Assembly (NCBI GenBank): GCA_026874595.1
Contig: CM049316.1
Location: forward strand, 35,161,339 to 35,225,338
DNA from: Sipunculus nudus
Lineage: Eukaryota > Annelida > Sipuncula > Golfingiida > Sipunculidae
Direction: 5' to 3'
Length of the DNA: 64,000 nt
Shown here: piece by piece, positions 4,269 to 51,900 of the stretch
How positions within the stretch are numbered: position 1 is the first letter of the stretch
Layout of the letters: each line of letters starts with the position of its first letter
Translations under genes and position numbers: made by a program
Notes under the pieces: model-generated
What the model saw: the letters and a program-made list of their open reading frames with translations, nothing else
The model's database searches: none
Told to the model about the DNA's origin: nothing

Positions 4269-4678
4269 CAAGGATGGAATATGTTAATGAATATATTTTT
4301 TTAACTTCTTTCGATCTTTTTTCTCTTTGTGTTATAAGTTTTGGAATGTTGTGCAATTTATGGCCTGTGTCTTTGGTCACTTCCACATACCACACAGGAC
4401 ACAAAGTTGCATATCAAACATTTAGGTTGCATTGGCAATTTATGGCAAAAAGAGTGAAGGTAAATCTTTCTTGATGATATTGTCAAGCATGCCACCACTT
4501 GTAGCACAGAAAGGTTTTTGAGCTATATACAAACTTTTGAAAAAGTGGACAACATTGAAGGACATTACTTAAGCTTACCAGATTCAGTCAGGTAAACAGA
4601 AATACTATATACTATACATTGTGTCAAAATGCATTGACAATTAGTTTTATATGTAATACATTTTAGACTGACAGAATA

Positions 4679-5046
4679 CTGTGGTTGGCTTCATATAAAT
4701 TTTCCAGGTTGAAATTTTGTGATTTTAATTTGTTTTCTTTGTTTTGCGAGGGTTCCACTTTTGCGAGCTCACCATACAATAATATATATAATCTGATTAT
4801 AGTCAATAACATGTGCGCTAAATTGTAACGATTGGACAGAGACCAAAGTGAACATTGAAAGAGTAAAAATTAATGTTCAGTTTTGGTAGATAACATGAAA
4901 AAATGACATTTATAACAGCAAATTTTTTTCCTTTGTCGATGGGGCCTTTTTTCACTATGGTTGTATTTCCACCAAGATTTTATTGTTTCTTTTTTGCAAA
5001 TGTTAAAAATTTGAGACCCTTATGAAAATATTACAGGCAGCCACAG
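4679..5046. mobile_element. TA-flanked MITE with CTGTGG termini, copy 1
   Basis: Starts CTGTGGTTGGCTTCATAT and ends with CCACAG, with TA on both sides (4677-4678 and 5047-5048). It belongs to the same family as 9001-9465. It lies about 80 bp from SLC66A2 exon 3, inside the intron that follows it. TA target and terminal inverted repeats suggest a Tc1/mariner-type origin. Confidence 0.65.
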
Positions 5047-5127
5047 TATATAATATTTCCATGCTTTTGAAGCAAAAAAGGGTCTGGTTATTAATCTGTC
5101 AAGATTGCAATGTAATTCTTAATATAC

Positions 5128-7951
<2,824 letters not shown>

Positions 7952-8110
7952 CTTTACTTCCCAGTTCCCAGACTGACTTCAGTGCTTTTCGTCATTGTGT
8001 ACAAGCTGGAAAAGGTTATGAACCCATATACCGGGCTTGCAAACGTGAGCGGTTTTGATTGGTCTAAATTACAAAGGCCAAGGTCATTGAGGAGACCGGT
8101 CTGTTGACAC
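7952..8110 (-). promoter_or_regulatory. SLC66A2: Probable SLC66A2 promoter and 5' leader
   Basis: Directly upstream of the exon-1 ATG. It has more CpG than the surrounding DNA and a minus-strand CCAAT box (GACCAATCA, complement of 8058-8065) about 110 bp upstream of the start codon. No TATA box is obvious. The transcription start was not determined. Confidence 0.4.
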
Positions 8111-9000
8111 TTGGAGTGAGTCTGAAGAGAAGTAACATTTGAACAAATTTAGTGTGATTCAAACATACAGTGAGTTTTTAATTGTCTGCAAATGCATAAG
8201 AAAAAAACAAAATACGATTCTGCATGTGGGTTGATACAGTTATATTCTTGACATTAACCGCAATGACACTTAGTGGGAAGGCAATTTCGGACCTTCATGC
8301 ACACACATCACTGAGTGACAACTGACATGCACACATTCATGTAGGCCAAAATTGCTTGCTTGCTGCAGACCATGGTCAGGGGATTCATGCTGCAGAAAGT
8401 GACCTGAGAAAACACACTATAAACACACTTAGCAGCTAGATCAACTCTATACTCACATTCACTTCTTTTAAACTAGAGTAACAGGCACAAGTTTACTCCA
8501 ATTAAATTAGTGGTTAAGCTTCACTATAAATATATCACTAAAAATTTCAAATGTGGATTTATTTTTACCAACATATACCACTGGATAGGATTTCATTTCA
8601 GGAATACATTTAACTGATTAAATAAATAAGATAGGATTATTTACTGCAAAGTTATTGCATATTTTATATTCAGATATGAGGCATACATGACCCATGTTTT
8701 CAGGAGAAGCTGTGACCAGTGGTCACCAGCACGGCTGGCCTGGCAGGCTGCCAGCTAATTAGGGGGCGTGTCCTCATCTGTTACTGCTGGCTCAAACACA
8801 CAAATGTCATCTCACTCATAATCACTTCTAACTCTGAGGAACTTAAACTCACTCTTCCATCCTGTATATTAGAAATAATAATATTGTCAGACATAATCCA
8901 CTTATGGGAAAAATTAAAAATTCAGAATAGAAGTTATATTATCAGAAATGTTAAAAATCAGATATATTCTATGAAATAATTAATCACTTAGCATGAAATA
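8111..9000. other. Intergenic AT-rich stretch
   Basis: No conserved frame or recognised repeat was seen. The open frame at 8719-8979 has no protein-like features. Confidence 0.5.
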
Positions 9001-9465
9001 CTGTGGTTGCCTTTTTATTTGCGAGGGTTAATTTTGCAATATTCGCGAATGTAACATAATCAAGAAAGAAACCCGCAAAAAATAAGATGCCCCATTAACA
9101 AAGATGAACAAGAGGGGATGATGCATCTGCACAAACAAATTACTTCTTCTACCTATGGAAACAACCTAAAGTCACAACCTAATCTGTGCATGGTATCCAA
9201 ACTGGCCCATTCATACAAGCATTTGTCATTGTGAAACGCGGTAATCACATGAGATATATCGATTGTTACACCGGTCAAAATGAATGACTGAATCAGAAAT
9301 GAGTGAGGTATTGTAGAATTGATTATACATTTTAAAATCAATACAAATACTGCGGTACTTAGATTTTATAGGTTCTTTTGTAATTGGGAAAATGAAACCC
9401 TCGCGAAATGTTAAAAATGAAGAAATCGTGAAATTTCAACCTCGCGAATATAAAGCCAACCACAG
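9001..9465. mobile_element. TA-flanked MITE with CTGTGG termini, copy 2
   Basis: The left end is CTGTGGTTGCCTTTTTATTT and the right end, reversed, CTGTGGTTGGCTTTATATTC. Both are followed by GCGAGG-type sequence (imperfect inverted repeat of about 30 bp), with TA on each side (8999-9000 and 9466-9467). CG-containing subterminal motifs (TTTGCGAGGGTT, AACCCTCGCG) recur inside. Non-coding. Confidence 0.75.
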
Positions 9466-10206
9466 TAGTTCATATTGTAAAAACTCAGTGTCAGACAATA
9501 TTATAATTTCTAAGCACTCATTGTCATATTTTAAATGATAATGCATAATTTGTGAATAAAAAATTTATTTACATAAATTATTACCATCAACAGTATCATG
9601 ATCACTTAATACCTTGCTACGCTCTTCCGCCATTCAGCTATGTTGAATTAGCACAATTTAAGAAATAGTCCATTTCACCACCCCTGTCTATTCCACCATC
9701 CCTGTCCACCTTTTTTTTGGCGCTTACATTTTAGAGTCAATTTTAAGAACCCCAAAACATTTTGCCCCTAGGGCAGAAAGAGAAAAAGGTGTAATTAATA
9801 GCCTGCCTTATATAATTTTCCTGTAAATAATTTAAAATCATTTTATGAGTAACTTATGGTCTATTCTGTACTGTAGCAACATCTTGCCAGCAGTCTAGGA
9901 AATGGGCATGGCAGGGAACTGATGATGCCATAACAGACATGACACACAAAAGACGAACCCCTGTGTTATTGGATTAATTACTTTTACAGTGAGGCTTGTA
10001 TATTTTCCTTGTGCACACATAACCAATCCCCGAATGACATACCATGGTTACTCGTTAGATGCACTGAGAATCAATCTTATATAACAGACAAGTCAACCAG
10101 GTCATAAAGTGAAAAATATTTATATCATCAGGGGCAGATTGAGGGGGGTGGGGACCTAATCTAAATTCCTGTACCTGCCCCTGATCATAAGCAGGTAAGA
10201 TTCAAA
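9466..10206. other. Intergenic stretch, nothing recognised
   Basis: No exon, RNA gene or bounded element was seen. A short G-rich patch (GAGGGGGGTGGGGACC) lies near 10141. Confidence 0.5.
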
Positions 10207-10320
10207 CTAGTCCATCTCTGGACCCTATCGTCCTATGCTAGATCTGTTGGATGAATGTAGGTCTAAGTTCGTCTAACTGATCTAGCATAGAATCATAGCC
10301 GGTGTCCAGAGATGGACTAG
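10207..10320. repeat. Short fold-back element with perfect arms
   Basis: The left arm CTAGTCCATCTCTGGAC (10207-10223) is the exact reverse complement of 10304-10320, and TATGCTAGATC pairs with GATCTAGCATA further in. The 114-bp unit can fold into a long stem with an interrupted middle. It resembles a hairpin MITE; a structured small RNA is a less likely alternative. Confidence 0.7.
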
Positions 10321-11013
10321 ATAGAAACATGCATTTTCCTCTTCAAGTTCCTGCTATATATTGTTACAAGTTTTGATTGGCATGTTCGTCTTACCTGATC
10401 ATAATTGTTAAACAAAGATGCATGGACAGAGGTAGTGAAAAGATTATAATGATAAAATCAGTTAATTGATGCATTTAATTTGCAATCCCATTATTAAGTT
10501 GTCATTGACTCTTAACCTCAAAACTAATTTCATTTTTTTAGCTAAGCTGACTATAAGTCATCTGAGCTATAGTCATGGTCCATTGTCCGTCGTCCGTCCG
10601 TCTGTCTGTCCGTCCGTAAGACTGGCACGTTTCCACACCGTTGGACCTACGAATCTGAAATTCAGCATACAGTTAGATGTCCCCAAAATCTTCTACCATT
10701 CCGAAAATTGGGTCAATAGGACTTCGTTCCTTCGAGATATTAAGGAAAAACCTCAATTTTTTATTAGAAATCTATTTTCACACTTCAGGACTGCCTAAAA
10801 TCAAAACCACTCATCTGGTTTTCTTCATATTTACCACAAATATACCTCTATATAGTTCCTATGTACATGCCAGATATTAAGTCAGTATTGTATAATTTAA
10901 AAAAGTTATGGGCCCAAACATAATGGACTTTGAAAAAAATCAGGAAGATATTTGGTAACTTAAGACCAAAAGTGTTAAAGGTAGGGACTTTTTTCCAGTA
11001 ATACAACTTTAAT

Positions 11014-30554: not shown

Positions 30555-30956
30555 TTATGTGATATTACCCTTTTTGTACCGCATTTCGAAAAGCTGCTCT
30601 GCCGGTGCAAGTTTTGGGGGATATATACTTGCTTTAGCAGGGAATCGTTTGCCTGCTATTTCAACCTCATACTTGGCATTTTTCAGAATAAAGTCATTAT
30701 TGATAATTTTGGGATCATTGGTGTTTTCGTCAAAATCCTGCACAAAACCAAGGCACACGTGTCGATCCAATGTGAACCCGTAAGATGCTGATGTTGTGAT
30801 ACCTGCATATTTTCCATTTCGGTATATGGGTTCACCTCCCCAAGGCCAAAGGTCATTGTCAAGGTCATGCTCCTCCAGAAGGAACTGTACAAGTCTTTTT
30901 CTGATGCCTTCTGCCTTCTGGCGTAATAAAGCTCCATGACCAATAAAGTTTCCTTT
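30555..30956 (-). CDS. PDPR: PDPR last coding exon
   Basis: Acceptor TACTTGCAG, then AAA GGA AAC; 402 nt ending in TAA. Encodes KGNFIGHGALLRQKAEGIRK, then LWPWGGEPIYRNGKYAGITT, YGFTLDRHVCLGFVQDF and EVEIAGKRFPAKASIYPPKL, the C-terminal GCV_T_C domain. The tail after KASIYPP is short and divergent, as in other PDPR proteins. Confidence 0.96.
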   Translation of the reverse strand, partial: KGNFIGHGALLRQKAEGIRKRLVQFLLEEHDLDNDLWPWGGEPIYRNGKYAGITTSASYGFTLDRHVCLGFVQDFDENTNDPKIINNDFILKNAKYEVEIAGKRFPAKASIYPPKLAPAEQLFEMRYKKGNIT

Positions 30957-33900
30957 CTGCAAGTAGAAGTACTCAACTATCAAAACTGGAAAGAATACTG
31001 CGCAACTGCTTCATTTTAATGTTCAAACTGGAATCTGAAAATGGTTCACAAATGGTAAGCCAAACTGACTTAGTTTTCTAAACAGAAAGAGATCTGTCCT
31101 TATGCTGCTATGGCCTATTACACTGAGTCATTGTATGTATCCAAATAAATCCTAAAATCAAATACTCCATTATAAAATGAACTTCTGCTATGCTAAAAAT
31201 CTGAATATCTGATTTTTTATATGAGGACCTGAGGCACACTAAATAGTTACTGAAACTGATGAATTGTAATAAAAAAAGGTTATCAACAAATTTGGAAACC
31301 TGCAGGGATTGATATTTAACAAAAATGCTGAAAGCCCATCTTACCATCTCTGTAGACATGCCTCAAGTCGTATGGCAGACATATTCAATTAGTCTCAACA
31401 GGCCATATGATAAAAAGCCCAGGAAAATTGCAAGTTTTCTATATGACTTATCAATGGCAAACAAATATTTAACATGATAACAAATTAATAACAATTCACA
31501 AATATATATACATGTATTACTCTTAAGTCTTATCTACCAAAGATTTCAAATATCCTAATTTTCTCTGTACTTAGAACAGGGTCAACATAAGAAATTTTCA
31601 GAAAAAATAACTCTAGGTCTAACTGGTACGATTTGTACCCCTCCTAATAGACATTCAGCTGGGCAGATGGTTGAATGGTCAGATGGTCTGACAGAAGGAT
31701 ATTGCTCAGCATGACAAAGTCAGCTGGGGTAAATTGCCTAATGCCTACCTCATATCTGACCCTGAAGTCTCGACCACATTCCAGTGGTGTTGTTTGAGGG
31801 CATAGCTCCAGGCCCCAATACGCAAAGAATTTCTCAATCCTCAGAGCACGGAGGGCGAAGTAGCCAACGTTCCTGATGCCGTAATTCTTACCTACAGACA
31901 TGAGGCTGTCGTAAACGTGCAGAGCATACTGAAATATGAGAAAAATATAAAGCCATCACATATCAGCCAATATGGAATGGTTGGAACAATATCAGTTTTT
32001 AATTTTACGATAATGACAAAAAATTTATTGTAGTATTTCTTGATATAATAATATCAATATCTGGTCGGGAACTCCAGCACTTTTCATCATTTCACATTTC
32101 TCAGTCTTCCCCCCCCCCCCCCCACCAAATTTTTGGGACTGTCTACAAACATACATTCGCAGTACAGTCACTTTGTTGAAATTTGTCATTTGAACATACC
32201 AATACCAATATATTTTTTTATACTTGATGTGGTTGGACCATGGTCCTCAGAGGGCCCCATATTTCTGGAAGTGCTGGACAAGTTTACACATCAGTATAAA
32301 ATTTTTAGTTAATATATTTAAAAAATATGACAAACAGAAACTTTAAAGAGATATTATAGATATATAATTTTGAAGTTAGTTTTCACATACTGTACTGTAA
32401 TTACATTAAGCTTCCAAATGCAGAGCTAAAGCTTGCTATATACATTGAGATCATTTAGTATTATTCTGTAGGTAGCTCACACATGCATGTATAGAAGTCT
32501 TTATAGTATATATTTTGTTTCTATTGTTCTAAGATGGGCTCTCTCTAATTTCTCGAGTCCACACCTCCTAGTCAGAATACAAGTCCAAGACCAGCAAATC
32601 AAAGTCCTAGTACCTAAAAAAAGTGGATGTGAGGCCTAAATCACTGGTGGTGAACCTACCTCAGACGGAATGTAGAGCATCCAGCCATCCTCTCCTGAGT
32701 GAGTCAGCCTCATGGCCTTGATGCTGCTGGCCTGGCCCACATCCATCCTCTGCAAGAGCAGGGAAATACAGCAACAGTTAATAAAGATGAATGATACATT
32801 ATGATCAAATTAGGCCAAAAAAATAACAAGGGATCCATGGGTCACATCGCTCAGCTGAATTTTGGAAAATATTAGTAAATGCAAAATATTTTTATTTCTT
32901 TTGGTTTTTCATGTATATTATCATTAGAAAAGCTACGAGAAAATGGCCCTGCTAAAATGAAACTGTAAAAATTATAGAATAATTGACATGAGCTAAACCA
33001 TTAAGTGATGCACCAAGGGAACAAAAAGGCCTACGGTAAGTGTTATATAAAAGTAACATTTCATAAACAAATAATGTGTGAAGGTAATTAAGTTTTCAAA
33101 AATTAAATATATGGCCATATGAGTTAAAAATTAATCCAACAAAGTTTGACCATTATTCCTAATTTTAATACTGAGTTAACAGTGTTATTCACACCTAGGC
33201 CCTGCCAACTTTAAGATATATAAATGAAAGGCTACAAAGTATTTATATCTTCTTAAATCTTGTCAGTTAGCACTTACATTAGATCCTAATATTTTATCAC
33301 ATTTGAATATTAGGATTAAATTCCTGAATGTTTTTCTTTAAAACAATCAAAATTGTCCAAGTCTCATCAAAAAGAATTTATTTAACATTAAAATTATAAG
33401 ATTCATCTTGTTTATTAGTCCTGTGTATTGAAGGGGTGGGTGGGGGGAGGGGTCTCCATTGTTACTGCTCGTTGCTGAAAAAAAATGTAAATTTTAAGAT
33501 TCATCTAGTTCATAGTACAGGTCTGTCAACAGAATGGGGGGGGGGGGGGGGGGGGGGAGGGGAGCGGGGGTTGCCAGAGAAAAAGGCTCCCTGTGGTATG
33601 GTATTAACTGCAGACAGCCTGATCAAGCTCAGCTCAGTGGAGAGAGCTGCACTGAATGACCTACAGTCACCAAAGTGGACTGCTTGACAATGTAAGGGAA
33701 TACAACAAGAGCCTCCAAAATAAATTCAATTACTAGCCTAATTTTGCAGCTTTAAATCCTTATGTGCATATGCTGTGAAAATTATATCCACAGTACTTAC
33801 AGGAAAAAAACGTGCTGTGGCCAAAGTTGGGCAAAATTTAAGGTACCAATTTTTATTTTTACTTATATTTTAAAAAATTTTAAAGATTTTGATCTAATTT

Positions 33901-36900
33901 TGGGTATACAATTTAATTTGATTAATTAAAGTTAAGCGATAAAATATTTTTCCTGATTTTTTACAAAGTCCATTATGTTCGGGCCTATAACTTAAAGGAA
34001 TTTATACCTAACAGACTTAATTTCTGGCATGTACATAGGAACTATATAGAGTAATATTTATGGTAAATATGAGGAAAAACAGATGAGTGGTTTTGATATT
34101 AGGCAGTCCTGAAGTGTGAAAATATGTTTTTAAAAAAAAAATTGAGGTTTTTCCTTAATTTCTCAAAGGAATAAAGTCGCAAAGACCCAGTTTTCAGCTT
34201 GGTAGGAGATCTTTGGGACATCTAACATTATGCCAACAGCCTGGGAACCATAGAGATATGCACTGAATGACCTACAGTCACCAAAGTGGACTGCTTGACA
34301 ATGTGAGAGAATACAACAAGAGCCTCCAAAAAAAATCAATAACTAGCCTAATTTTGCAGCTTTTATTTTCAAATTTCAGATTTAACAGATTAAATCCTTA
34401 TGTGTACATGCTGTGAAAATTAAATCCACAGTACTTACAGGAAAAAAACGTGCCGTGGCCAAAGTTGGGCAAAATTTAAGGTACCAATTTTATATTTTTG
34501 CCAATATTTGAAAAAATTTAACAGATTTTGATCTAATTTTTGGTTTACAATTAAATTTTGATTAATTAAAGTTGTATTACTGAAAAAAGTCCCTACCTTT
34601 AACGCTTTTGGTCTTAAGTGACCAAATATCTTTCCTGATTTTTTTACAAAGTCCATTATGTTTGGGCCCATTACTTTTTTAAAGTAAATAATACTGACTT
34701 AATTTCTGGCACCTACATAGGAACTATAAAGAGGAAAATTTATGGTAAATATGAAGAAAACCAGATGAGTGGTTTTGATATTAGGCAGTCCTGAAGTTTG
34801 AAAATAGATTTCTAATAAAAAATTGAGGTTTTTCCTGAATATCTCGAAGGAACGAAGTCCTATTGACCAAATTTTCCCAATTTTCATCATGGTAGGAGAT
34901 TTTGGGGGCATCTAACTGTATGCCAAATTTCAGATTCGTTTCAAATTTCGTAGGTCCAAGACAGACAGACAGACAGACGAAGAACGGACAATGGACCACG
35001 ACTATAGCTCAGATGACTTATAGTCAGCTGAGCTAAAAAGTAAGGCTCTCAGGCACCACCCACAGCAATTTTAAATCTACGCATCAAAAATTTTTTTTTG
35101 ATTTTCAATTGATACTTACCAATTTTAGCTCAAGCCGCTCGGACATTTCTTTCAAGAAGATAACTCATACAATTTTGATAAAATATCCTTTTTTATGTAG
35201 TTCTTTACTTGTTTAGCAAAATAAAGCTGTAATTATCATGTTTTCTCTTATCATTTGACAATTTTATTGAAACATACAAATAAATTAAAAAAACTCCGCC
35301 CCCACTGATTTTTTAACCAAACCTTTTTTTTTTTGCCTTAGCATATAACACGCAGACTGGCATGCAGATATTCTGAGAATCAGGATTGTTTGAAGTGCAC
35401 TGATAAACGTTCCATGTTTTCCTTGCAAAAGTCTATGTTCTATTTCAAAATATCAATTTAAAGATTCTGTTTATAATTTATTTTGTGTAACAGAAACGTT
35501 TAGGCTCTGTAGTTGTGTATCTAACACAAAGCAAGCATCCTTGTGTTGGACTTAAAATGTGTCATTACCAGAACTAGCTCGATTTGATCTGACTTGTAGT
35601 ATTGTTAGGCCCTGCCATAAATTGACCTCACCATGAACTTAAAATGACCTTAATAGCATATTCATTTATTGAACAATCATGAGCAATACTGTTCTGTGCA
35701 GCCAATCAGGTCGCCAATATTACTGTAAGCCATCAGTAGCCTTACGATAACATAATTTGCATAATTTGTGAGACCTCTCACAAACATAACATTTGTAGTC
35801 TGTACCCGTACCTTGCTCCTTAGTCAGCATGTTTTCCGGGATATTTTTTTATACAAAGGAGACAGTACAAAAATTTCTAGGCCAAAAGTTGCATGAGCGG
35901 ACTACTGAGTGAATGATAATGTCTTACCTGGTGCGTAATTCGTATGAGACATATTATCCAAAACATAGCAAAACAAATCACAATGACTGCCGTATAATCA
36001 ACACTTGAGAACAGAGATAGAGCGTTTCCAGTTGATGACAGCTTCAATGCGACATCATACGTCATCCACCTTTGAGACGTCATGATTGTGTTGTAAAGAG
36101 CTCATGCATTCATGGGCATGGAAAGCTGTCTGTGAGGGAGCGTTTTGGGGTCTCATTATCATAATTAGGTGAAAAGGGCGAAAAACAGATTTGTTGCGCG
36201 CACTTCAATTTCCCACTTACTGCCTAACAACAAGAAAAAATGATTTCCCAATTGAACATCAATACACATTTGTTTCATGGTTTCAATAACAGCTGAAATT
36301 AAACTTGCAATCTCCTCAGTATTGAACTGTTACACACCTTTCTGCAAGGGGAGTATACCAATGAATTAAGTAGAGATGGGGAAAAATAATGTCACATGCA
36401 TGGGAAACTGTAAACCTCACTTGGTGCTTTTGGAGTTGAGGGACTGAGAGCCAGAATTTTTTTACATTTGTTAAATGGGCCCACTTTGAAGAGTAACACA
36501 CTGGAACGGGATAAATGTAAACCTGTTAACACTGGTTACAAGGGCAATGAATGGTGTGTAGTCTGAGGCTTATATTGTAGGAACTCTGGCTGTATGGACA
36601 TAAGACTCAATATATGGAGGGCACTATAAATATTGAGTCCGATTAACTGGACTAGACCTAAACTTGCATGAAAATCAATGACTTAAAAAATGTAAAGAGA
36701 ATGCAATTGCGAGCCAAACCTTGAATGTCATGACAGGGAAGTCTTGTTTAGTGAGTGAGAGATCCGTCAGTTCAGACAAGAGTTCAGGGGATCGTGGGCC
36801 GATCACATTCAGAGCAGTGTACATTGACGTCACATCGCTGAGCTGTACTGAGCCGTCCGCTGGGAGGTGTTCTTCTAACCAACAGAATGCCCTGGTCTGC

Positions 36901-39900
36901 TGAGCTGTAGGGCCTATCATGAAATACCTGAAAAAAATCCATAGTAGACGTATATACTGTATTTCCATATTATGTAATATTTAGTAGTAACATTAAATTC
37001 ATACATTAATCAGGAAAAGTAGCATATGACATAACCTATGTTATATAATACTAAATTGTTATGTTATATCATAAAATATTACACAATACTGTATTATATA
37101 ACAAAATATTGAAATTTTTTATAGCATAACATATAATATAACATTATCTGACATGGTATTTCAATTAATTACTACTGCAACCTGCCGAACTATATCAATA
37201 ACTTTTAATACACTTATTTACATGCTAAATATTGAGAAAATGAAATATTGTGCATACATTATTTAATAAAATATCTAAATGACAAATCTCTGACATATTA
37301 TTCAGTGGAAAAATTTTAAGCTTTGGTCCTCTTAACATTAAGGTAGGGAGATGGGTTGGGGGGCTTTCGTTCATACCCCAGCAATCAGACTACCATTATG
37401 TGACAAGGCAATACAAAAGCCACAAATTTCTTGCATCATTATCTTATAAAAAAAAATTCTGTTATATAAAAAAGTTAACATTGCGTTTGGGGGGGTCCAA
37501 AGGGGGCTTTAATTTTTATGGTTTTTGTGCAGGAAATAATTAATATTTATCCAGACAAATGATCTATAAGACTGGGTAAAGAAACAACAGGTCTAACATT
37601 AAGTATACCTTTTCGATATCCTTTCAATATAAGGATAGGTCTATGAGCTGTTTTTTGCACTATCTACTGTACAAGGGTGAAGGAAACAATATGATAAGAA
37701 TGATATGATATTATGAAGCTTAACTAGATTTCAGGTTATACAAGCACAGGGTTAGGAATAATCCAGTAAGCTGTAACCTGTCATTAAGATTCAAGGGTGA
37801 ATCTCTGAAGTTATATCAAGATATCTCCATTTAACATTTGAGATAATGACAGGATTCGAACCAGTGAGTTTCCACTCTTAGACCAACACCTTAACCACAA
37901 GGTTACATCCTACCCCAAAAGAATTAAAATAGACCTTAATCAAGCCCTGATCAGAAAGGTTGGGGGTTTATAACTGACATTACTGATGAGTTTATCTCAT
38001 GATAAAAGAACTCTAAAAGAATCCTGTTTAAATCTTGCCTGTTGTCAGCTACTCTCACAAAACTGCAGTCGTTCTCGAACCCTCCGTGATGATTCTGCAT
38101 GCCCGTGTGGATGACACTGCCAACAGGCTGGTCCATCTCATTAGAGCAAACATACTGGAGGAAATCAACGACCTCAGTCCCAGCACTCTGAAAATATAGA
38201 AGATATATATATATATAAAATACATATAAAATAACAAGACTTAATACATGAAACTAACCCCTCACATCAAGCAACCTGAAATATACAACAGACATAGTGC
38301 ATGAAATCTACAACCTAAACTAGGGACCCAGGGGCCTCAACACTCAGCTGAATTTGTCTATAAGGATATTGATTAAGAAATTTTTCAGAATGACGGTCCT
38401 GTGACTTTAATCAATGACCCTCGTGACCAAAAAATCTGACAACTTATTATCCTTGATTTTGCAGCATTCAGATTATTGTAACAATCTTTTTAAAAAAGGG
38501 GGTCCAGTGACCTTGACCTCTGACCAGGTAACCTCAAAATCTACAGATTTCTTCCACTTTGGGCAAGTAAGCCATGTGTGAAAGATAGAAAGTTTGGGAT
38601 GAAAGTTTGTTTACAGTGCATCCACAATCAATTTACAGATGTAGCTCCTGAGATCTTCACCTTTGACCTCTGGACCCTGAAAATCTAAATGTTTCTTACT
38701 TAAGTGGTGGCTCATTTATAAATCAAGTTTGAAGCCAATCTGTCAATCCAAAGCAGATTTATCTACTATAAATTAATTTGTGAATGGTTGGACCCTGTGA
38801 CCTTGAATTGTTACCCTATGACCCCAAATAAAAAAAAAAGAATCTTCCCTTATTGGCAGGTGAATATTATATCTTATATATATATATATATATGTATATA
38901 TATTATATCTATTATCAAACCAAAGTGGAGTTATCATCTGGAAACAAATTTGTGAACAGATGGCCTTTGTGACCTTGACCTTTGACCTTGTGACCCCCAA
39001 TTCACTTATGCCCTCCCCATACTGGCTAGTCAGCTAAATGTGCAAGATTGAAAGTTTGGGATGAATAGCTTAGCTTAAAATGCAGCCATAATCTTTTTAA
39101 ATAAGCGAGTCTTGTGACCTTGACCTTTGACTTCATGACCCAAAAACTATACAGGTTCTTTCTTCAGTGGTGGACCATGTGTAAGTCATGTCTGAAATCC
39201 ATATGTCAATCCAACCTGGAGTTATCATCTTTAAACAAATTTGTGAGGAGGAACAGGTGAAGAGACAGACAGCTAGTTAGAGTGATCCACTTGTGATCAA
39301 TAAACATACCAGGTTTTGGGACACTAGATGGAGTCACAGCTGAGAAACTGACATGATTGTTGTCATTTTATAGTAAAAAATATAGAAGAATATTTGTTAA
39401 AATAAGAAAAAATACAGGTGGGGCCACCACTTAACAGGAACTGACAAAACCAGTCATGTCAATTTTCAAGGCAAGATTCATGACAATCCATGCATTAATA
39501 ATCAAAGTATTGCAGGTTTTGTATATTTTTTAAATTTTTCTTGGGGGTACTTTCAAGCCCAATAGCTCAAAGGATATAGGTAACAGTGAACTTAGTTCAG
39601 GTTTCCAAGGAGATTTTTTATTGACCTGTTTTTTATTTGCTCCCTGGATGTTCACCTAAAAGTTTCTAGGACCAGCAGTTACAATTTGTGCCCAGCTAAC
39701 AGTCAGCTGGACAGCAGGATGCCCTGAAGGATGATGGACAAAGCGCCATTCCTATACATCATGCAGTTGACTTACAGTCAGCTTGGCTAAAAAAAACACT
39801 GTGAAATATACAACAGACATAGTGCATGAAATCTACAACCTAAAAAAAAACACCTTGAAATATAAAAGAGATAAATTGTAAGAAATCTTCAACCTGGAAA

Positions 39901-42900
39901 TGTGCAGCATGAAATATACTTTGTGTATGAAATCTTAGAAATTAAATCAGAAATATACAACTAATACTATGAAAGAAATAAACCATCTGGGTCTATGCCA
40001 TTCGTCACAGGTGATGAAGTACATTCTATACAATGCGAGTCTTGAGTGCAGGCTGAGTTAGTTCTTGAGGTTTGAGATGGTCCAAGCCTGTTAGAAATTT
40101 AGTCAAAGTCCAATAATGATCATCTTTATTTTGAGGTAAAAATGGGATTTGGAGATAATCAACTGTAGTTTTCAATTAGTTCAAAATTACATTTCAAATC
40201 ATATTTGGACACTCAGAAGTGAACCATCACAGTAATACCAACATAATCGTCCAATAGATTATAACGAAGTATGTTGGTAATATTCTGATAAAACTTAATC
40301 TATTGATATGTTTTCAAATCTTAACATCAGACATTAGGTGACAAAGATTTTTCAACAGGACTTGACATGGACCCAGCCTCATTTTTTTAATCATAATCTC
40401 AATGTATATGTAAATATGCATTTGCAACATAAGATCAACTAACCCTGAGCTCAAATTTTGTGAACGTCGACATGTCAATGACAGCCACGCCTTCCCGACA
40501 TGCCCAGTACTCAGCCTTCACCAGCTCAAACCAAGGGGGCTTACCATATGTGGGCTTAGTAGGGACGTCATAATAGAGCTCGTCTGAAAAAAGAGGAGAG
40601 AAATGAAGACCTAACTCTTCCATATAATGATGATTTTTTTCTGTATGTTACATATATATTCAAATTATTACTGATACTTTTAAATAACTCATATATTTAC
40701 TCATACTTAATTTACATCAAAATTAAAGAAAATGTTTCATTTTTTAAAATAAGACATCTTTCAAATTTGTTCCAATGATCAGGCAAATCTATATTTACCT
40801 CATTTTGTTCATAACTGTACACAATTTCCTTGCATTTTATTAATATGTAAACTACTTAGTAACTCGATTTTACAGATTCCTATCAAGTTTTACAACTTTT
40901 GTCCATGATGAATATTTCACAAGCATTGGAAAAATAATAAAAAAAAGAAAAACTTAATTATTATCATTAATTAATAATTATTAATGAATTATAAATGAAG
41001 TCACACAGTTAGTACTTCTCAATTATTACCATCTTTGACTTCATGATACCAGAGGGGTCTTTCATATCCCATGAGTTGACCAAAGACCGCCCCGTTACCC
41101 TCCTGGCGACTGAACAGTGGAGATGTGCGTAAGTTACGACCAGTTCTATAAAACGCTTCTTGTACACGGGGGCCAATTATATGCTGTAAACCTTGACCAA
41201 AATAAAGACAAAAACCATCCTAACAAAATTCCCCAACAGGTGCCCTGGTTTGTGATTCTGTTACAAATCTTCTGAGATAGACTGGTTCCTGCCATTAATC
41301 TGTTCACACCAGGTTCATGATGAAAATATTTCAATATCAGCAGTATCTTTTGTCAATAATCTGTCATCAAACCATTAGGGTCATTTCAGTTTCAAAATGT
41401 AGGTAACACTGACCTACTTTTAAATTTAACCTAAAAATGCCTGAAATGTACCTCACACTGATTGCTTATGGAAGTTTAACCAGAGCAACACCTGTGCCAT
41501 TTTATTTTTACCACAAAGAAATATCAATTGAGGGATTTCTGGTGTTTTTGTCAAATGGTCCCGAGTGACTCAGTACAGAGAAGTAGAGGGTTAAAGCTTC
41601 CATTATCTTTTTATTTAATAGTAACTACATGGGTGATGAGTATTTTGTTACTCTACTGGTTACAAAATATGCCCTATTAATGTCCTTTTTTTCTGGAGGT
41701 AAGAGCCTTTTTAAAGTTTTTAAAGCTAGATGAAGTAAGTATGTCTGATCTGCAGCATTATATTTCTGTCCTGGCCATAAAACAGGATGGTGACACACAC
41801 TTAGGCCAAAATAAAAAAAGGTATGGTTCTCAGGCACTTTTTTTCAGAAATCAATGCGGGTGGGTGGTTTTTTTTAATTTTTAGGTATGTTTCGATAAAA
41901 ATGTCAAATGATAAGGGAAAAACATGATAATAACAGATTTTGCTAAACACATAAATGCACTACATAACAAAGGAAATTGTATGATTTTATCTTCTTGAAA
42001 GAAATGTCCGAGCAGCTGCAGTTAAAAATTGGTTAGTTTCTATTGAAAATCAAAATAAAAATGTTTGATGGGGGGATTTAAAATTGATGCGGGCGGTGCC
42101 TGAGAACCATACCTTTTATTTTTTTTGGCCTAATTCATGGCATCAGCAAAGCCTGGTGTACACTCTGCTTGTTTTGCATGCTTGATCATTCTTATTGCTG
42201 GGTCTTTACAACAACAAACCCCAGAAGGTACACAAGTTATTGAGTGAAATACAACTGTAGAGCACAGCCTTCTATTTAGCCTTCAGAGCACTCATTCTGG
42301 GTGAGCATATTCTCACAGCTAATTGGCTGAGTTTCAAATTCACCATCTTCCAGCACCCCTAGACGCTACAGGGGACAGTTCTTATTAAAGGTGCCCACTC
42401 TTTTTTTAAATTTGGTAAAAGTATTTATGTGATTTCTGGCTTCCTCTGAGTATATATTAATGATCTAAGGGTAATTTTCCTTGTGAAAAGTTCTTATAAG
42501 CCTTTCTGAGGGATGTATGAACCTATTTATCAACATGTTTGTAAACACAGAAATGTTGACAAATGGGAAAAATATTAAGGCTGGTTGCATATAGGCCAAG
42601 GTATAAAGGTCATTGCTAAAAAAAAAACACCATTTACATAGCTCTGGTTTATCTGACTTGCCACCAGATGCCCTTGTTAAATTTGTTTTGATTATTTTGT
42701 CAGGCCTCGACATATTATAAATACGTTGATATAAACAAAAACAAACGGCATGTGTGCAGTGATATCCACATTTTCTGGCCTATTTTTATAAAAGCTCTAG
42801 GGGAATAACTCTAGTCTATAAAGGTCAGATAGGTGATTAGGCCCCTTTAATGTAATTTTGCCAAGAAGGGTAATCTCTGATTGCCAACTGACCTGATCCA

Positions 42901-45900
42901 TGGTGAACCTATATTGAAGTCCACATTGATTATGGTGCTTGTAATTTTTAAAAATTTTTATCATGTTGCATTTTTTATTTGTTTAAAATTGCAAAAACAT
43001 GATTATTGATTATTAGCATTTATTCAAACAGATTAACAATAAAGGTACAATTCCTGATAAATACATGTAATTAACATATGTGGCACCACACTTAATTAAT
43101 GCCAAAAAACACATAAAAATAAATCATGCACAGGATATTCCATGCAGTTATGAGTCATACATAACTTTACATGGTGGAGTTTAAACTGCCTTCCCAATTG
43201 TTTCCTCAAAGGTTGGTGACCTTGTTGTCCAGAACACTGAATCACAAGCAACCCCCACCCAAAACCACCCACCCAGTCAGCGTCAAGCATGGATGTGTCA
43301 CACTGGCTAATTCTAGCCGTCAAATTATGCTAGAAGGTTCGTCCTGGTTAGATGCTCAAATCTCAGACCCAGCAACAGTAGTTTTTATGTCAGGATTATG
43401 ACATGTGACATGTTTTTCTTTCTGGCAGTGAAGATGAGCGCTGATGTAAGCATTCCTATTAAGAATATTGCATGGATATCTTGTTGAGGGACATATTGCT
43501 ACCAGTAGGTTAAGCATGTTACATTTCATGATTCTTACCTAAAATATACTGTTGGTGGGACTGGGATTTAATCATTTTACTAGTACAGGATAAGATAGGA
43601 TAAGGTATCATTTATTGCCAATACATAATTTGGGTGTCAAGCAACTGATATGTGGCACAACTAAGAAAATAATATTTATAATAAAAATAATAATAGTAAT
43701 AATAAAACTGTGTAAAAAGCATATGATTAACAACTAGAAAACATACTAATGCTTTACATATGCTTATTGAACAAACACACTGCACTGGGCATGAATGAGT
43801 CCCTAAAATGATTAGTTTTGCACATAATGAACTGTATACGTCTTACAGATTTCAACCATCTGATTGCTCCACTCAACAGATGCTGACTTCTCATCATGCT
43901 TTTTAACTTACTCAGTACCTTTAGACAATACATGCCTTCCAATTTTTTTAAGTCTATACAAATAATACGTTCTGCAATTTTCCTTGTTCTCTCCAATCTT
44001 TCTTTCTTAGCAACACTCAAATTATTCCACCAGCAGATAACACTGAATGTTTATTACCACACTTTGTACAACAAATGTGTAAAACAAAGTAAGTATTTTC
44101 TTATCAATATGAAAGCGTTTCAATTTTCTATGAAAGTACATCCTTTGACTGCCTTTTTTACATAAGGCATCTGTGTTATCTGACCATCTAAGTTTATTGT
44201 CAATAGCTAACCAGATATTTTGTCCTGATCTGACTTATTGAAGAATGAACTGTGCCCTTTCCTGCTGGATGCCAACTTTGTGAGAGAATTGGGAATGAAG
44301 TTAGAATTTTAACCTCTGATACAGATGAAAAATACTCATATGAACCTGGTGTGAACAGCCATCTCTAACCAGATCAGGAACGTTCATCAATAGAACAGCT
44401 TGAAATATTAGTGTGTGGAATATCCTGTGGAAAAGTTCTTGTGAAGAATTAATTCTTTACACTATTGATGAATAAACACAGAATTTTAAATGGTATTATC
44501 ATTTTCTTCAAGTATAAAATGCTCCTTGAATTTAACAATTTTTATAAGCTGGCCAAAATCTAGAAAATTTCTTAAATCAACAATTTTGGTAAAAAAACCA
44601 GAAATAAATGTTTTAAATATTCTATGGGTTACTCATAAAAGTCACATATCATGGTTTATTTACAATTCCTTATTTGCTATTTCTTCAGCATCAACTCTAC
44701 GTCTAATCAATATATATTCCCTTGATCAGTATTTCAAGTAAAAGTTCTCTTGATGTATTTTCCTAATCCTTTACACTACAAATTTCTATGAATTCCCTCT
44801 GCTCCAAACTTCTGTGAAATGTTCTTCAGCATGGGACTACGAGCATAAATAATCTGGTTTTTACTATTATATGGTTATAATGTTTGACAGTTTTTAAAGT
44901 TCCGCATTTTCTGGGCAGCACCTACAATCTTTAGGACAATAACATAAAATCCAAGTTTTATTTATTGTTTCTAAAAGACATTTACACTTATTAACAATGG
45001 TGTACTTCATTGTGCATATTTCTTTAAAAAATATCAAAAAGAGCACTGCTCTATATGTATGTCTGTCATAAGTTTGAAGTTGACAAATCTGGGATTTTTT
45101 TAACATTAAGCGAAATATTTTACGTTTAGAGAGAAATTTTGTATTAAGTTATGTGTACTTAAAAAGAGATAAATACACATCAAGCTGGCACATCAGAGCA
45201 CTGAAAGTGTGCGTAAAATGCCTAATATATGTAAATCTTATGAAATCCGATCTAATTTTGATTTGCAAATTTGCCATGAATAAAACTATTGGTAAATATT
45301 TATAAGAATATTTATTTTATTGGTAAATATTTATTGGGTATAAAAAAACTTTCTTTAAGGAGAATGGGAAGCTGTGTAAGTCAAATATTAGGGACACCTT
45401 TTAAAATAACAAAACCAAGGCATTTACTTAGAAGAGAACCTGCTGGGAAAAAGGTAGGGAAACATCAATAGCTGGAGAAGGGACTCGGAAAATGTTAAAA
45501 GAAAAATCTGATACACTTTTTGAGAGCTATGGAAAAGGCAGCTCAGTGGCGTGTGATACAGGGGTATCATTAATGGCCAAAACTCCATGTGGGGTAACAA
45601 GACTAGGTAAGTAATACAATAGTACAAAATTTTAGAAATGGGTGTTTGTGGTGATAGGGGCAAAATCATTTGGGTCTCCCTTTTATTTTATTTTTCAATT
45701 TAAAATGCCTCATTTATAATAAGCTTGAAATTACAAGTTGTGAGATTGAGCAAAATGCAATCTGCTGATAATATTCATGCTATGTTTAGGGCATGATTCA
45801 CATTCTTGCCAGTGAGTGGGGTAACACCACATTAAAAGGAAGCACAGCTTGATGGTGGACTGTTAGGAATTACTTAAGGGTAGGTTTCAGCAAGAAATAT

Positions 45901-48900
45901 ACTTATATAGCAATATTTACAAGTGACTAATTTCCAACATGCAAATAAACCCAATCATAAATCTGAAAAATGAAAAACAAATCTTGCAATTGTTAATAAT
46001 GAAAAAATCCAGGGTGAAAATCTGAAAACAATAATAACTGTTACACACAACCAAGTAATGACCTCACACAGAAAGGTCAGCTGAGCCTGGCAAAAACTCA
46101 GGAAAACACTGTAAAAAAATCAGTGTTTCTTGGTTACCCAAGAGTGCTTTGTTGTTGAACCAGGCAGGTCTCTCATATCCCATAGACTGAAAGAAAGTTG
46201 CTGTGTCTTCAAGACGGGAATATAGAGTTGATGTTCGCAGACAACGACCGGTATCATAACACTTGTCTGGGTGTTCCATCGCTGCTTGCATGCCTTGATG
46301 AAAAATACAGGTTTTGTTAGGCTTATGATAAATGTTATGACAGCATACAATAACACATAAACTGGAAAACGGGCAGTCAACAAATGACTACATATATCCG
46401 CCAAATCACAGAGGCATGGGTAAAGTAAGGCACTGAATGTTCCTGACATGACATGACTCATAATTTGTGGCAACAGAGATGCCAATTAAACTCCTCATAT
46501 ATGAGCAATTTTCACCAAAAAAAAACATATCTACAGATGGATACCAGATGGTATGGATTGTAGGTGGCCCTAGCAGTCTTGTATTTAAGATAAACCAGTC
46601 CAAGATCTTTCAACATGCAAATTTTTGGGTGAATTCATCAAACCACTCCTGAGAATGGGGCAAAATATTCTGCGAAAAACAAAAAGGTAGGTGGCACCAC
46701 CTGTCTGATCTATGATGGATCTATGCTATGTGAAAATGATCATAGATGGTCCAAACAAGCTTGTGTGGAGGATTGAGGTATCCAAACTCTGTGGACATGA
46801 GAAATTTAAGGTTGAAACATTGAACCAGTCCTGAGATAAATGTATGAATGTATTCTACAAATAAGTGACTGCAGGTGGTGCCAATGGTCTTGTGAATGAG
46901 AAATCTACCCAAGACAAAAGAACATGCAAAATTTCAGGCCTAGACACCATTGCCCTACTGAAAAAAAGAGCACCAATAAATTCTATGAAAACAATGTCAA
47001 GTGATGCCACCTGTCTGGTCTACAAAAGTTTTCCTACACGGATAAATATGCAAAATTTCAGGCTGATATATCCATTGACTCATGAGATATGAAAAATTTC
47101 ATGCAAAACAAATGGACAAATAGTGGCTACACGAAAACAAAAGCTGAGGGCACCACAGGCCTTGAGTTAGAGATGGAGGTATCTAATTATAAGATCTATG
47201 GACATGTAAAATTTCAGGCTAATATGGCAAAGCACTCCTGAGAAAAGGGCATCAATGTATCCTACAAAAACAGGAAGGTAGGTGGTACCACCTGACTGGT
47301 CTACGAGAAAACTCTCCAAGATGGATGGACATGCCAAATGTCTGACCAATATATTGAATCACTTCTGAGATATGAGTGCTTTTTCACACTAAGCAAACAC
47401 ACGGATGGATGCCATGCAAATACAATTACAGATGGTGCAACCAGTCTTAAGTATGAGATGGAGGTATCCAAGATCAATGGACATGCACAATTTCAGCCCA
47501 AAACATTGATCCATTCCTGAGATATGGGCTGTTATCACAAAGTAACCCAGATTCATACTGCATGAGATGGCAGGTGGCACCACCAGTCTTTGTAATGCAT
47601 CAGTTCACATGTGAGCAAGTAATTATGCCAGGTTCTTGAAACATTGGTCCAAGGGTCTCAAAGGAGTTCTCTGGAAAATGATTGCCGTGGTGGAACCCAC
47701 ATGAAAACATAGTGTCTGCAAAACTCTGTTTTGGCGGATACAGTAAAATGTGAATCATATTTTAAAAGAAGACCTTGAAATATATTTCTCTTATTTTCAG
47801 TATAAATTTTCCCACATACCTTTACAGTTAATCTTTTAGCAGGGATACACAAATGAAAAACATATCTTTCTGAGAGCAGTTTCTCAAATGAACACCAGGT
47901 GGCTATATAATACAAATGTGGTTTTACTGCATATATAAATATTGCCTCATCCATGTTTTTATTAAAATAATTATAAATTCATAACTCTTTTCGTGTTTTA
48001 TCAACACAATATAAAGCAATTCATATGTACTTTGGTATAACATACTCTTCACAACTTACCCAATGTCTCCCTTACTCGGTCTTTCAGGAATTTCTTGTTG
48101 TTGTGCATGCGAACAAAACGACGGATATCAATGCTCCAAGCATCATCCAGTGGTTCTCCATGTATAATCCACTCTGCCATGAGTTTACCGATCCCCCCTG
48201 CCAGAGCAATACCTCCAGAGTTCATCCCAGCAGCCACAAAATAATTGTTCACCTGATGGTGGAGATTGAAATCAGTTTGGTCGAATTCATATAGACAAAA
48301 ATAAAAATTCATTTAAACATCTACTGAAACACTGCAGATGTATATATACTAAGTCAAGCTAGCTTAAAAAAATTGGGGGCAGTTACTCCCATCAAAACTA
48401 TGAGTACAAACCTATATCAACTGGGTAGAAAAGTACAGTCAGTACTGGTAGTAAAGTAAGTTTCAGCTCAATAATAACAATTATTCCAAGTTGAAATGTT
48501 CTTCCAGCCCACTGGTGAATTTAAAAAATATTTGCTTTATTTTACTTTCATTTTGGGGGGAAAATCAAACAAACAAATGGTAGTTTACATACTCATCACA
48601 GTCTGTCCCTTTTCAAAGTGTGATCTCTAATAAATACATTTAAAAGCCAATTAATTATATAGAAGGCCCAACTCCCTGATAATCATTCTAGGTGCAAGTC
48701 TGGCATGCCTTAAAGGGACATAATCAGGAGCAATATTAAGCCCATTCTTTCACACTATCAGTTCAGTTTTGCCAGTCTCCCAACAAAACACCCCAGCACA
48801 GTCTTAGTACCTCCCATATGGCTATTTAACACCTTGTTATGGTTCTGCATGAGTAAACATAGCCCATGTGTGTTTATTTACCATTACAAGGTCACATGAC

Positions 48901-51900
48901 CGGAGGTCAGATATTGCACATAAGTGACAAATTCAATACAAGGAGTAGTCCAATCTAATCCATACATGGACCTTCATGTCCTTTGATACATCTCTGCTGG
49001 ATGGACATTACAGTCCATGGGCTTTATGTAAATAATTGTAGAACCTGTTGCGATGGATTTGTACAATAGGTCCAGGGGCCTCAGACCTAATCATGTGTAG
49101 TACAGTGTCATCCTGTGTATTGGGTCACTGAGCCACTGCAACATCTAGATGTTTCAGCCAGCATGAACATGTATTAAATTTTTTAGGGTCAAGTCAATCA
49201 GGGCATCTCCTGATTGACAGGTGTAGTGGCCTGGGTGATGCACACAGTCTCACATACTGTGTTATGTTGATGCCTGTGATCACACCTGGTCCACTTTATT
49301 TCACTTGAGCAGTTAGCCAACGATTTAAGTGCAATATTTTGGCAGGTACCAATTTATTTCAAATATGAGTCGCTATTTTTCATGTTAATTCAATATCCTT
49401 AACAGTAGCTTAGGTCCCTTTAAAGTATAGTACTTTCCCTATTTCAATCTATGTCTAATGTTTATAACTCCACTGGTTCTGCAGTATATTGTTAACCCTA
49501 CCTCTGGAGCTTCTCCAACAATACACCTGCCATCTGTTGTGAAGCTTTCTGGGCCATTAACGAGCTGTCGGACCTCAGCTTCTTCAAATGCTGGCATTCT
49601 GTGTAGTAACTGTTCCAGTATGATTTCTGTAAATACAATAAAATATTACTTATATGACTAACTTTGATACCAAGGATTGGAAACGTAATACTGAAAGTGA
49701 AACAAGTGACCCATGGGTCATGACACTCAGCTGACTGGGAAGAGATTCGCAAAAGAAAATTTTATCATCAGAATGGTAGTATATACCCATTCAACTGAAG
49801 CATCAAACAGATTAACCAACAGGCCAAGATTGTGTTTGTATTTATATATCTCAAAAATAGAGAAAAAATGCATGAACTTTAAAAACTAGAATATGGGTAG
49901 TCAACAAGCTACTACATGTATCCGCCAAAATCAGAGTGGAATGGGTGAAGTGAGGCATGGATTGAGTGGCAAGGGGAAACAGAGTGAGGTGTGTTGCATA
50001 TTAGCATGGATGTCTGCAGCCTAAATGTGTATGTAGGTTTTGCCACGTACCACAAATCCAGAAAGCTGTCCAAGTTGTATACATATGCGAAATTTTAGGC
50101 AGAAAAGTCAAACCACTACATGTATATGAGTGTTTTAGCCCTCGGCAGACAAACAGACAGACACTGTGCAAAAATGGTTGCAGGTGGCCCTCCCTGTTTT
50201 GTGTATGATAAAGACCTATGTAATATCTAAACACATGTACAATTTTGGCCCAATCGGTCAAATGGTTCCCGAGATATGAGCTTGGATGTCTGCAGTGTAA
50301 ACTAGAATGTAGGTGGCGCCACCTGTCATAAAATCAAGAAAGCTGTCCAAAAAACCTGCAAAATTTTAGTCAGTTATGTCAAACATCTACAAAGATATGA
50401 GTGATTTTAGCCCATGGCAGACAAACAGACAGACACTGTGCAAAAATGGTTGCAGGTGGCACCACCAGTTTTGTGTATGAGAAAGAGCTATGTGAGATCC
50501 ATACACATGCAAAATTCTGTCCTGATCGGTCAAACAGTTCACGAGATATTAGCTTGGATGTCTGCAGCGTGAACGTGAATGTAGGTGGCGCTACCTGTCA
50601 AAAATCAAGAAAGCTATCCAGGATGTATACACATGCCGAATTTCAGGTGAATAAGTCAATTCGCTGCAGAGATATGAGTGATTTTAACCCAAGGCAGATG
50701 AACAGATGGACACTGTGCAAACATGGTTGCAGGTGGCACCACCATTTTTTGAGTATATTATAAAGCTATCCAAGGGCTACATTTGTATAACAATTTTTCC
50801 TGATTGGTCAAATGGTTCCTGAGATATGAGGGTTTATGTGTGGAAACAGATGCACAAATGGATGCTGGGCAGAGAGGAAAGGTCAGAGGTCAACGCAAAT
50901 TGGTTAGGCACCAGTTCACATGTGACCCGATAATTGGTGTAAGTTTTGGAAAAATCAGTTCATGTGTCTCAGAGGTGTTCTCCAGAAATGAACGCGGTGG
51001 AGGTGAAACCCTGTCAAAAACACAGTATCTGCAAAACTTCCTTTTGGCAGATACAAAAATACCAGTCTACAGAAACTAATAACAAGTGACCCAGGGGTCA
51101 TGACGCTCAGCCGACTAGGAAGACATTCACAAAAGGAATTTTATCATCTGAATGCCAAATTTTGTAGATTGCATCCCATTTCAACTGAAGCACAGCTCCG
51201 AGGATATGGGTAACAGAGACCTGATTTCAGGTTTCAAAGGAGATTTTTCATGGACCTCCCTGGATGTCAAGTTAGAAGATTGTAGGTGGAATGGTTATGA
51301 TTTGTGCCCTGTTAATGGATCGCTACACCACTGAAGGTCTCAAAAATAGAGTAAAAAATGCGTAAAAATTCTAAAACAAGCATGACCTGTGACATCATGG
51401 ACTGAGATTCACAACTTTCAGTCAAATTTTGAAGAACCAATTTGCCAATTTGTTGAAAATTTTCTATGACAACAGAAATATATATCACCTATGTCTGGTT
51501 AAAACACAGTGAATTGATGGTCTGAGGAAAATGCATGATTGTTAAGCTATCAGGAACTATTCCAACAGCTTGCTTGAAACCTGTCAGTCTCAAAAGGAAC
51601 ACCACAAAGGGCAAATATAAGATCAAAATATATAGCAAAAATCAAGGAAATACATGCAAGAATTATTGAGAAACAGGTGCTTCTGTATGAATTTTTATTC
51701 AATACAGGCCAACTGTACTGCACTTTTATAAATGATGGTAATATTTATTCAGAAATATTTGACCCAATCCTTTACAAGATTACATAAATATACATCCAAC
51801 TGCATTCACTTTAACTGTTTTTGAGATAATATGATCAAAAGGAATTAAAAGATGGTTGCCTGGTGGCCATATTGGACTTCTGACAAGTCTGAAATCAGAC

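Follow-up and report, generated by a model that had tools for sequence, protein, structure and literature searches.

The window analysed here is the whole 64,000 nt stretch of contig CM049316.1 (assembly GCA_026874595.1, positions 35,161,339 to 35,225,338 of the forward strand) from the sipunculan Sipunculus nudus. On its minus strand it harbors exons of a gene which we take to be PDPR, the regulatory subunit of pyruvate dehydrogenase phosphatase. Two homologous exons of this gene, here called A and B, lie in tandem. We suggest that A and B stem from an old duplication, that both are under selection and that they are alternatives for one slot in the protein. We put the probability of this reading at about 0.72, and the animal could then probably make two forms of PDPR by splicing. 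The pair and its flanking constitutive exons are located as follows (window coordinates).

48060..48252, minus strand: constitutive exon before the pair, encoding the end of DAO and most of FAO_M; donor GTAAGT
46138..46293, minus strand: exon A, first alternative copy; 156 nt, phase 1-1, open, AG/GT
41030..41191, minus strand: exon B, second alternative copy; 162 nt, phase 1-1, open, AG/GT
40444..40583, minus strand: constitutive exon after the pair, GCV_T domain

The initial annotation described two tandem exons with these coordinates, lengths, open frames and phases and with a common TCAAG/G acceptor context (the slash marks the splice border), and all of this was recovered. The acceptors read ...TTTTTCATCAAG/GC for exon A and ...TTTTGGTCAAG/GT for exon B, and the donors TTGG/GTAACC and GATG/GTAATA, respectively. 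Also as claimed, the motifs TGR.LRTS, LxSR.E and MGYERP are common to A and B, and either exon, spliced in silico, joins position 48060 to position 40583 in an open frame. In brief, A and B are homologous adjoining internal exons of the same phase and similar length, and each of them alone gives an intact frame and an intact domain. A G at donor position +5 is absent from both copies and present in five of the six other assigned donors of the gene, a tally that leaves out the donor near 38053, where the phase is unsettled. Weak donors are frequent in regulated exons. An AG is found 28 nt upstream of the acceptor in both copies, and the intron between A and B is 4,946 nt long.

The similarity between A and B is far beyond chance. 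Their alignment scores 87.5, whereas 2000 letter shuffles have a mean of -10.4 (standard deviation 7.4, maximum 18); A and B agree at 24 of 51 aligned residues. Searching the 1.43-Gb genome with the protein of exon A at E<=10 matched only A and B among the best candidates scored, with some stretches of the genome masked as N; exon B was found with an E value of 2e-5 over 37 residues. A profile hidden Markov model (HMM) that includes A and B themselves gave 82.1 bits for A and 74.4 bits for B, and an HMM search of the window and loci L011-L013 found no third copy of the exon. A stretch at 39950-40057 (E 0.12, 10.4 bits, 24 residues) was considered as a third copy; it lies in the following intron, is without TGR.LRTS and was taken as chance.

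A family profile built from ten bacterial relatives covers the gene in order, from locus L012 (contig C11, approximately 35.237 Mb) to the last exon. At E<0.3 the scan gave 19 rows, which represent 18 distinct stretches, since L011 overlaps the window and the 62.2-kb stretch is therefore listed twice. Weak matches account for four of the 18 (E 0.12, 0.0078, 0.0032 and 0.0019). Each part of the profile is matched a single time along the gene, save for positions ~415-463, which are matched by A and again by B, and for end overlaps of at most 11 positions. The A/B segment is the only doubled segment among the 18.

In the protein, the exon covers the final third of FAO_M and the beginning of GCV_T, the folate-binding domain. 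The initial annotation held that a switch would alter the central FAO domain; this is right in that the end of FAO_M is included, and needs amending in that the segment is the junction of FAO_M and GCV_T and not FAO_M alone. Any effect of the swap on Mg2+ sensitivity would be conjectural. Searched alone against Pfam, exon A had no match and exon B only weak matches below the cut-off. In the context of the spliced protein FAO_M scored 54.7 bits with A and 47.1 bits with B, and the dimethylglycine dehydrogenase chain 5l46_A scored 78.9 bits for the A form and 78.9 bits for the B form. That A and B fit the slot about equally well is supported. In a comparison that included skipping, FAO_M reached 53.6 bits with A, 46.0 with B and 39.2 without the exon, and GCV_T reached 65.7, 72.5 and 54.1 bits, respectively. 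The FAO_M match stops at position 39 of 56 when the exon is skipped and runs to 56 when it is present; the GCV_T match starts at position 18 without the exon, at 7 with A and at 3 with B.

We suggest that both copies are transcribed and that each mRNA would carry one or the other, as two folded domains would be disturbed by having the copy twice or not at all. The choice may be regulated through the weak 5' splice sites and splicing factors, perhaps with help from an inverted repeat in the intron. The two forms would differ only in the 52-54 residues that join FAO_M to GCV_T, and might tune phosphatase activity differently, possibly with oxygen supply.

Several observations speak against this proposal, first of all against strict exclusion. 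The joins that contain both A and B, or neither of them, are also in frame; both exon lengths are divisible by three, and the frame thus does not enforce exclusion. The introns measure kilobases, which leaves no role for crowding in preventing A+B, and inspection of the splice sites by eye showed no apparent U12-type site at the pair. The skipped form still scores above the Pfam cut-offs of both FAO_M and GCV_T. It should be noted that these points agree with an alternative in which A and B are not strictly exclusive and the A, B, A+B and skipped forms all occur, as for neighbouring cassette exons; all four combinations are in frame, and nothing that we found forbids A+B. However, a skipped exon leaves only positions 1-39 of the 56 of FAO_M and takes away the beginning of GCV_T. 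Hatje et al. (PMC5740500) make the case that exclusive splicing applies to homologous exons within folded domains even where neither frame nor crowding imposes it. We consider free combination of the two exons unlikely.

The initial annotation also pointed to the A-B intron as a place to look for pairing elements, and one inverted repeat with two perfectly matching arms was found in it.

44340..44358, no strand assigned: inverted repeat arm 1 (19/19), A-B intron
41300..41318, no strand assigned: inverted repeat arm 2 (19/19), 108 nt upstream of exon B

When the 7476-nt region was shuffled 200 times with its dinucleotides preserved, no repeat of 19 nt arose (maximum 17). The exact 19-nt word has two copies in the genome, both at the PDPR locus, and at up to 2 mismatches the arm word gave 29 genomic matches versus 10 for a control. 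The 44340/41300 repeat is locus-specific. Its length alone is not telling, since the window still contains five inverted repeats of 19 nt or longer within 8 kb once low-complexity sequence has been filtered out. A duplex scan gave -39.5 kcal/mol for the two arms; if paired, they would place 3 kb of the intron upstream of B in a loop.

The arm at 44340 has a second partner at 47520-47567, upstream of A, with -29.8 kcal/mol. None of 100 shuffles of the arm letters gave a value as low, and among GC-matched natural segments this value was equalled by 14 of 120 (at least three of the eight such segments that were printed overlap the arms themselves). The second partner of the 41300 arm is unremarkable, with 17 of 100 shuffles as low. 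A competing pairing of the docking/selector type was dropped, as the second partner is not notable compared with the natural GC-matched segments. In clusters of exclusive exons the outer introns tend to pair with internal ones, and internal introns tend not to pair with each other (PMC6071210), whereas both arms of the strong pair here are located in the internal intron. The search for pairing elements thus gave one locus-specific repeat, in a layout unlike the docking/selector scheme and with no supported competitor, and we regard this repeat as a candidate element for exon choice, not a mechanism. Taken as a whole, the initial interpretation holds up where it concerns an old tandem duplication, copies that look constrained and an about equal fit to the slot; exclusion is enforced neither by frame nor by intron length.

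Other repeats were observed around the pair. The longest perfect inverted repeat of the region, 22 nt at 41816/42096, lies within 30-nt arms. These belong to a stretch of the A-B intron at window positions 41801-42133 with approximately 30-nt inverted ends around approximately 260 nt, which looks like a small transposon similar to a miniature inverted-repeat transposable element (MITE-like). The intron before exon A holds a diverged repeat array at 46535-47600 with a spacing of approximately 125-250 nt. Further away, at window positions 4232-10565, another of the five filtered inverted repeats (4232/10556) consists of a repeat family, the 19-base word of which has 16,814 genomic occurrences.

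The silent sites of A and B point to an old tandem duplication. With the NG86 method dN is 0.60 and dS is undefined due to saturation, 8 of 12 shared fourfold sites differ, and the residue identity is 24 of 51. The differences fall on first, second and third codon positions in 22, 21 and 35 of 51 cases, a modest excess at third positions (p 0.022). In 4000 runs of a neutral simulation with substitutions only and no insertions or deletions, 0.8 changes per site left 0.7% of the copies open with AG and GT, and a mean of 12.4 of 54 residues was kept. The rate of 0.8 is half of a Jukes-Cantor distance of approximately 1.65, calculated by hand from 12 fourfold sites only, which also counts against our reading. 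At 0.4 changes per site 4.1% of the copies were this intact, and 23.5 of 54 residues were kept on average. The simulation is supportive of constraint, not decisive. The initial annotation took the conserved frames as a sign that both copies are functional; both do look constrained, and the argument is weakened by the 4.1% that neutral decay leaves intact at the rate of 0.4.

Comparison with bacterial relatives gave a crossing pattern. We found 13 bacterial loci in 6 of the 21 genomes searched and aligned ten of them, leaving out L113, L122 and L123; L114, L115 and L116 among the ten are near-identical and not independent. In the first half of the segment, which runs to LRTS, all ten relatives are closer to A than to B. 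In the second half B is closer to nine of the ten, the exception being L112. The first half of A keeps the ancestral spacing and a P (YAM..HWP in L120), and B has two extra residues there. The second half of B keeps the P after LRTS and GAVFGQ, and A is without one residue and these letters. In terms of ancestral features, A has lost the P of SP and the letters of GA.FG, and B has lost HP. Each copy has thus kept and changed a different part, which, as we read it, fits two working, specialised exons better than one that is dying, and A and B would be two constrained, specialised copies.

These data bear on a second alternative, namely that only one of the two exons does the work, while the other is rarely used or in decay. 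The loss of part of the ancestral pattern from each exon, the missing +5 G in both donors and the 4.1% of simulated copies left intact at 0.4 neutral changes per site would be compatible with it. Against it stand the 0.7% left intact at 0.8 changes per site with 12.4 of 54 residues kept, compared with 24 of 51 here, the leaning of the differences to third positions, and the different ancestral parts that A and B keep. We regard a dying copy as quite improbable.

Constant inclusion of both exons, which would double the domain junction of PDPR, is very unlikely. The frame permits it, but the protein would then contain the end of FAO_M and the start of GCV_T twice in succession, and the segment is present only once in the three dimethylglycine dehydrogenase chains with printed alignments and once in each of the ten aligned bacterial relatives. 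An assembly or haplotype artefact is hardly credible, since A and B differ at 78 of 153 aligned bases and are therefore not allelic, and the surrounding gene lies collinear on a single contig of 79 Mb; the assembly includes several bacterial contigs, and no support for an artefact was found.

Our preferred reading remains that of two selected, alternative exons in a single PDPR gene, which forms one minus-strand locus. The Pfam domains are ordered DAO, FAO_M and GCV_T along the gene. The relatives matched in the PDB comprise five distinct sequences, three of dimethylglycine dehydrogenase and two of dimethylglycine oxidase. The name PDPR is our assumption; it follows general features of PDPR and the naming in the initial annotation, and the PDB matches are dimethylglycine enzymes. 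In addition to the four exons given above, the following exons were assigned, and further 5' exons are located beyond the window in L011 and L012.

62156..62308, minus strand: exon, DAO domain; splice sites picked by us
49502..49626, minus strand: upstream exon, DAO domain; splice sites picked among candidates
36720..36927, minus strand: exon, GCV_T domain; phase of the junction with the 38.1-kb exon unsettled
31749..31928, minus strand: exon; splice sites picked by us
30555..30956, minus strand: last exon, stop codon at 30555-30557

A search of the animal's own genome with the spliced protein gave eight matches at E<=0.01, all of them exons of the PDPR gene, and no retrocopy that would reveal a spliced form was seen among these. 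As the searches of the own genome match only exons of this gene, we conclude that there is a single PDPR locus. The PF16350 (FAO_M) search of the genome matched the 48.1-kb exon and gave two weak matches (E 6.4) only. No genes for sarcosine or dimethylglycine dehydrogenase were seen with PF16350; the same search also missed exons A and B, which indicates that split domains escape PF16350 and that this negative result says little.

Entry into respiration from glycolysis is gated by pyruvate dehydrogenase. If our reading is true, exon choice in the regulatory subunit of its phosphatase adds a layer of control to this enzyme. As the two forms would differ only in the junction of 52-54 residues, a comparison of them could show the role of that part of PDPR. 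PDPR tethers the phosphatase to the lipoyl part of E2 (PMC9107372), and binding between the regulatory and catalytic subunits makes the catalytic subunit sensitive to Mg2+ (PMC12308253). We found no report of duplicated or mutually exclusive PDPR exons in the open-licence literature, as judged mostly from listings, and two surveys of tandem or exclusive exons in humans (PMC9741552, PMC5740500) do not contain the word PDPR in their main texts. A cancer catalogue contains an alternate-acceptor event in human PDPR (PMC6262947), which is a different kind of event, and PMC10433203 concerns the expression of PDP1 and PDP2. Exclusive tandem exons are well known as a kind, and PDPR appears to be new as a carrier.

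The genome also encodes a COQ2-like gene (L110, C10:12256700-12261100) with two tandem exons for one segment of the profile.

C10 12260552-12260682, minus strand: coq-2 e-like exon; 131 nt, ...TLNWG...YSHQ (Leu, Ser)
C10 12257067-12257200, minus strand: coq-2 a-like exon; 134 nt, ...TFNWG...YAHQ (Phe, Ala)

In rhodoquinone makers, found among helminths, annelids and molluscs, changes of Phe to Leu and Ala to Ser mark coq-2e versus coq-2a, at positions 204 and 243, which are 39 apart (PMC7434440). Here the spacing is 39 in the a-like exon and 38 in the e-like exon, which is one residue shorter; the marks were placed by motif and spacing and not by alignment to the sequences of that paper. The genome thus looks like it carries the coq-2 a/e pair of rhodoquinone-making animals. 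Like the PDPR pair, coq-2 exons 6a and 6e are homologous, lie in tandem and belong to a nuclear gene with a role in mitochondrial metabolism (PMC7434440). Joint inclusion of the coq-2 exons (131/134 nt) shifts the frame, whereas that of the PDPR exons (156/162 nt) does not. Use and switching of the coq-2 exons have been seen by RNA-seq in other animals (PMC7434440), whereas the PDPR pair is known here from DNA alone.

Two further systems are similar. Exons 4a and 4b of vertebrate OGDH are homologous and mutually exclusive, and they alter metal-ion control in a mitochondrial dehydrogenase complex (PMC7969005). OGDH has distant branch points (PMC7969005), and the AG at 28 nt argues against such a layout in PDPR, where the intron is 4,946 nt long. 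The mitochondrial gene AOX of Crassostrea virginica has a duplicated exon 10, the choice of which depends on stress (PMC5589949). That duplication concerns the last exon, with 3' alternative splicing, and the choice was measured (PMC5589949), whereas the PDPR pair is internal and was read from the genome only.

An alternative oxidase gene (PF01786) is present in exon pieces at C12:46147371-46151484 (L024). Based on this gene and the coq-2 a/e pair, the animal may tolerate low oxygen. Another splice switch, at the level of pyruvate dehydrogenase, would suit such a life; this is a guess. The haemocyanin domain of molluscs, PF14830, had no match in the genome and none in the control genomes. We speculate, at low odds, that the PDPR pair is an arm of an oxygen-linked mitochondrial splice programme shared with coq-2, in which low oxygen would swap the FAO_M/GCV_T junction and tune the phosphatase for anaerobic rhodoquinone metabolism. 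The co-occurrence with coq-2 a/e makes such a programme testable.

The bacterial genes in the assembly are located on contigs C60-C62, C66, C72, C74, C75, C89, C123 and C138. Full-length cox1 is present on several of these, and the copy on C60 is at best 59% identical to that of a metagenome-assembled genome (MAG) of Oligoflexia. Contig C123 carries a gene for a cbb3-type oxidase and C138 a UbiA gene. These contigs perhaps represent animal-associated bacteria.

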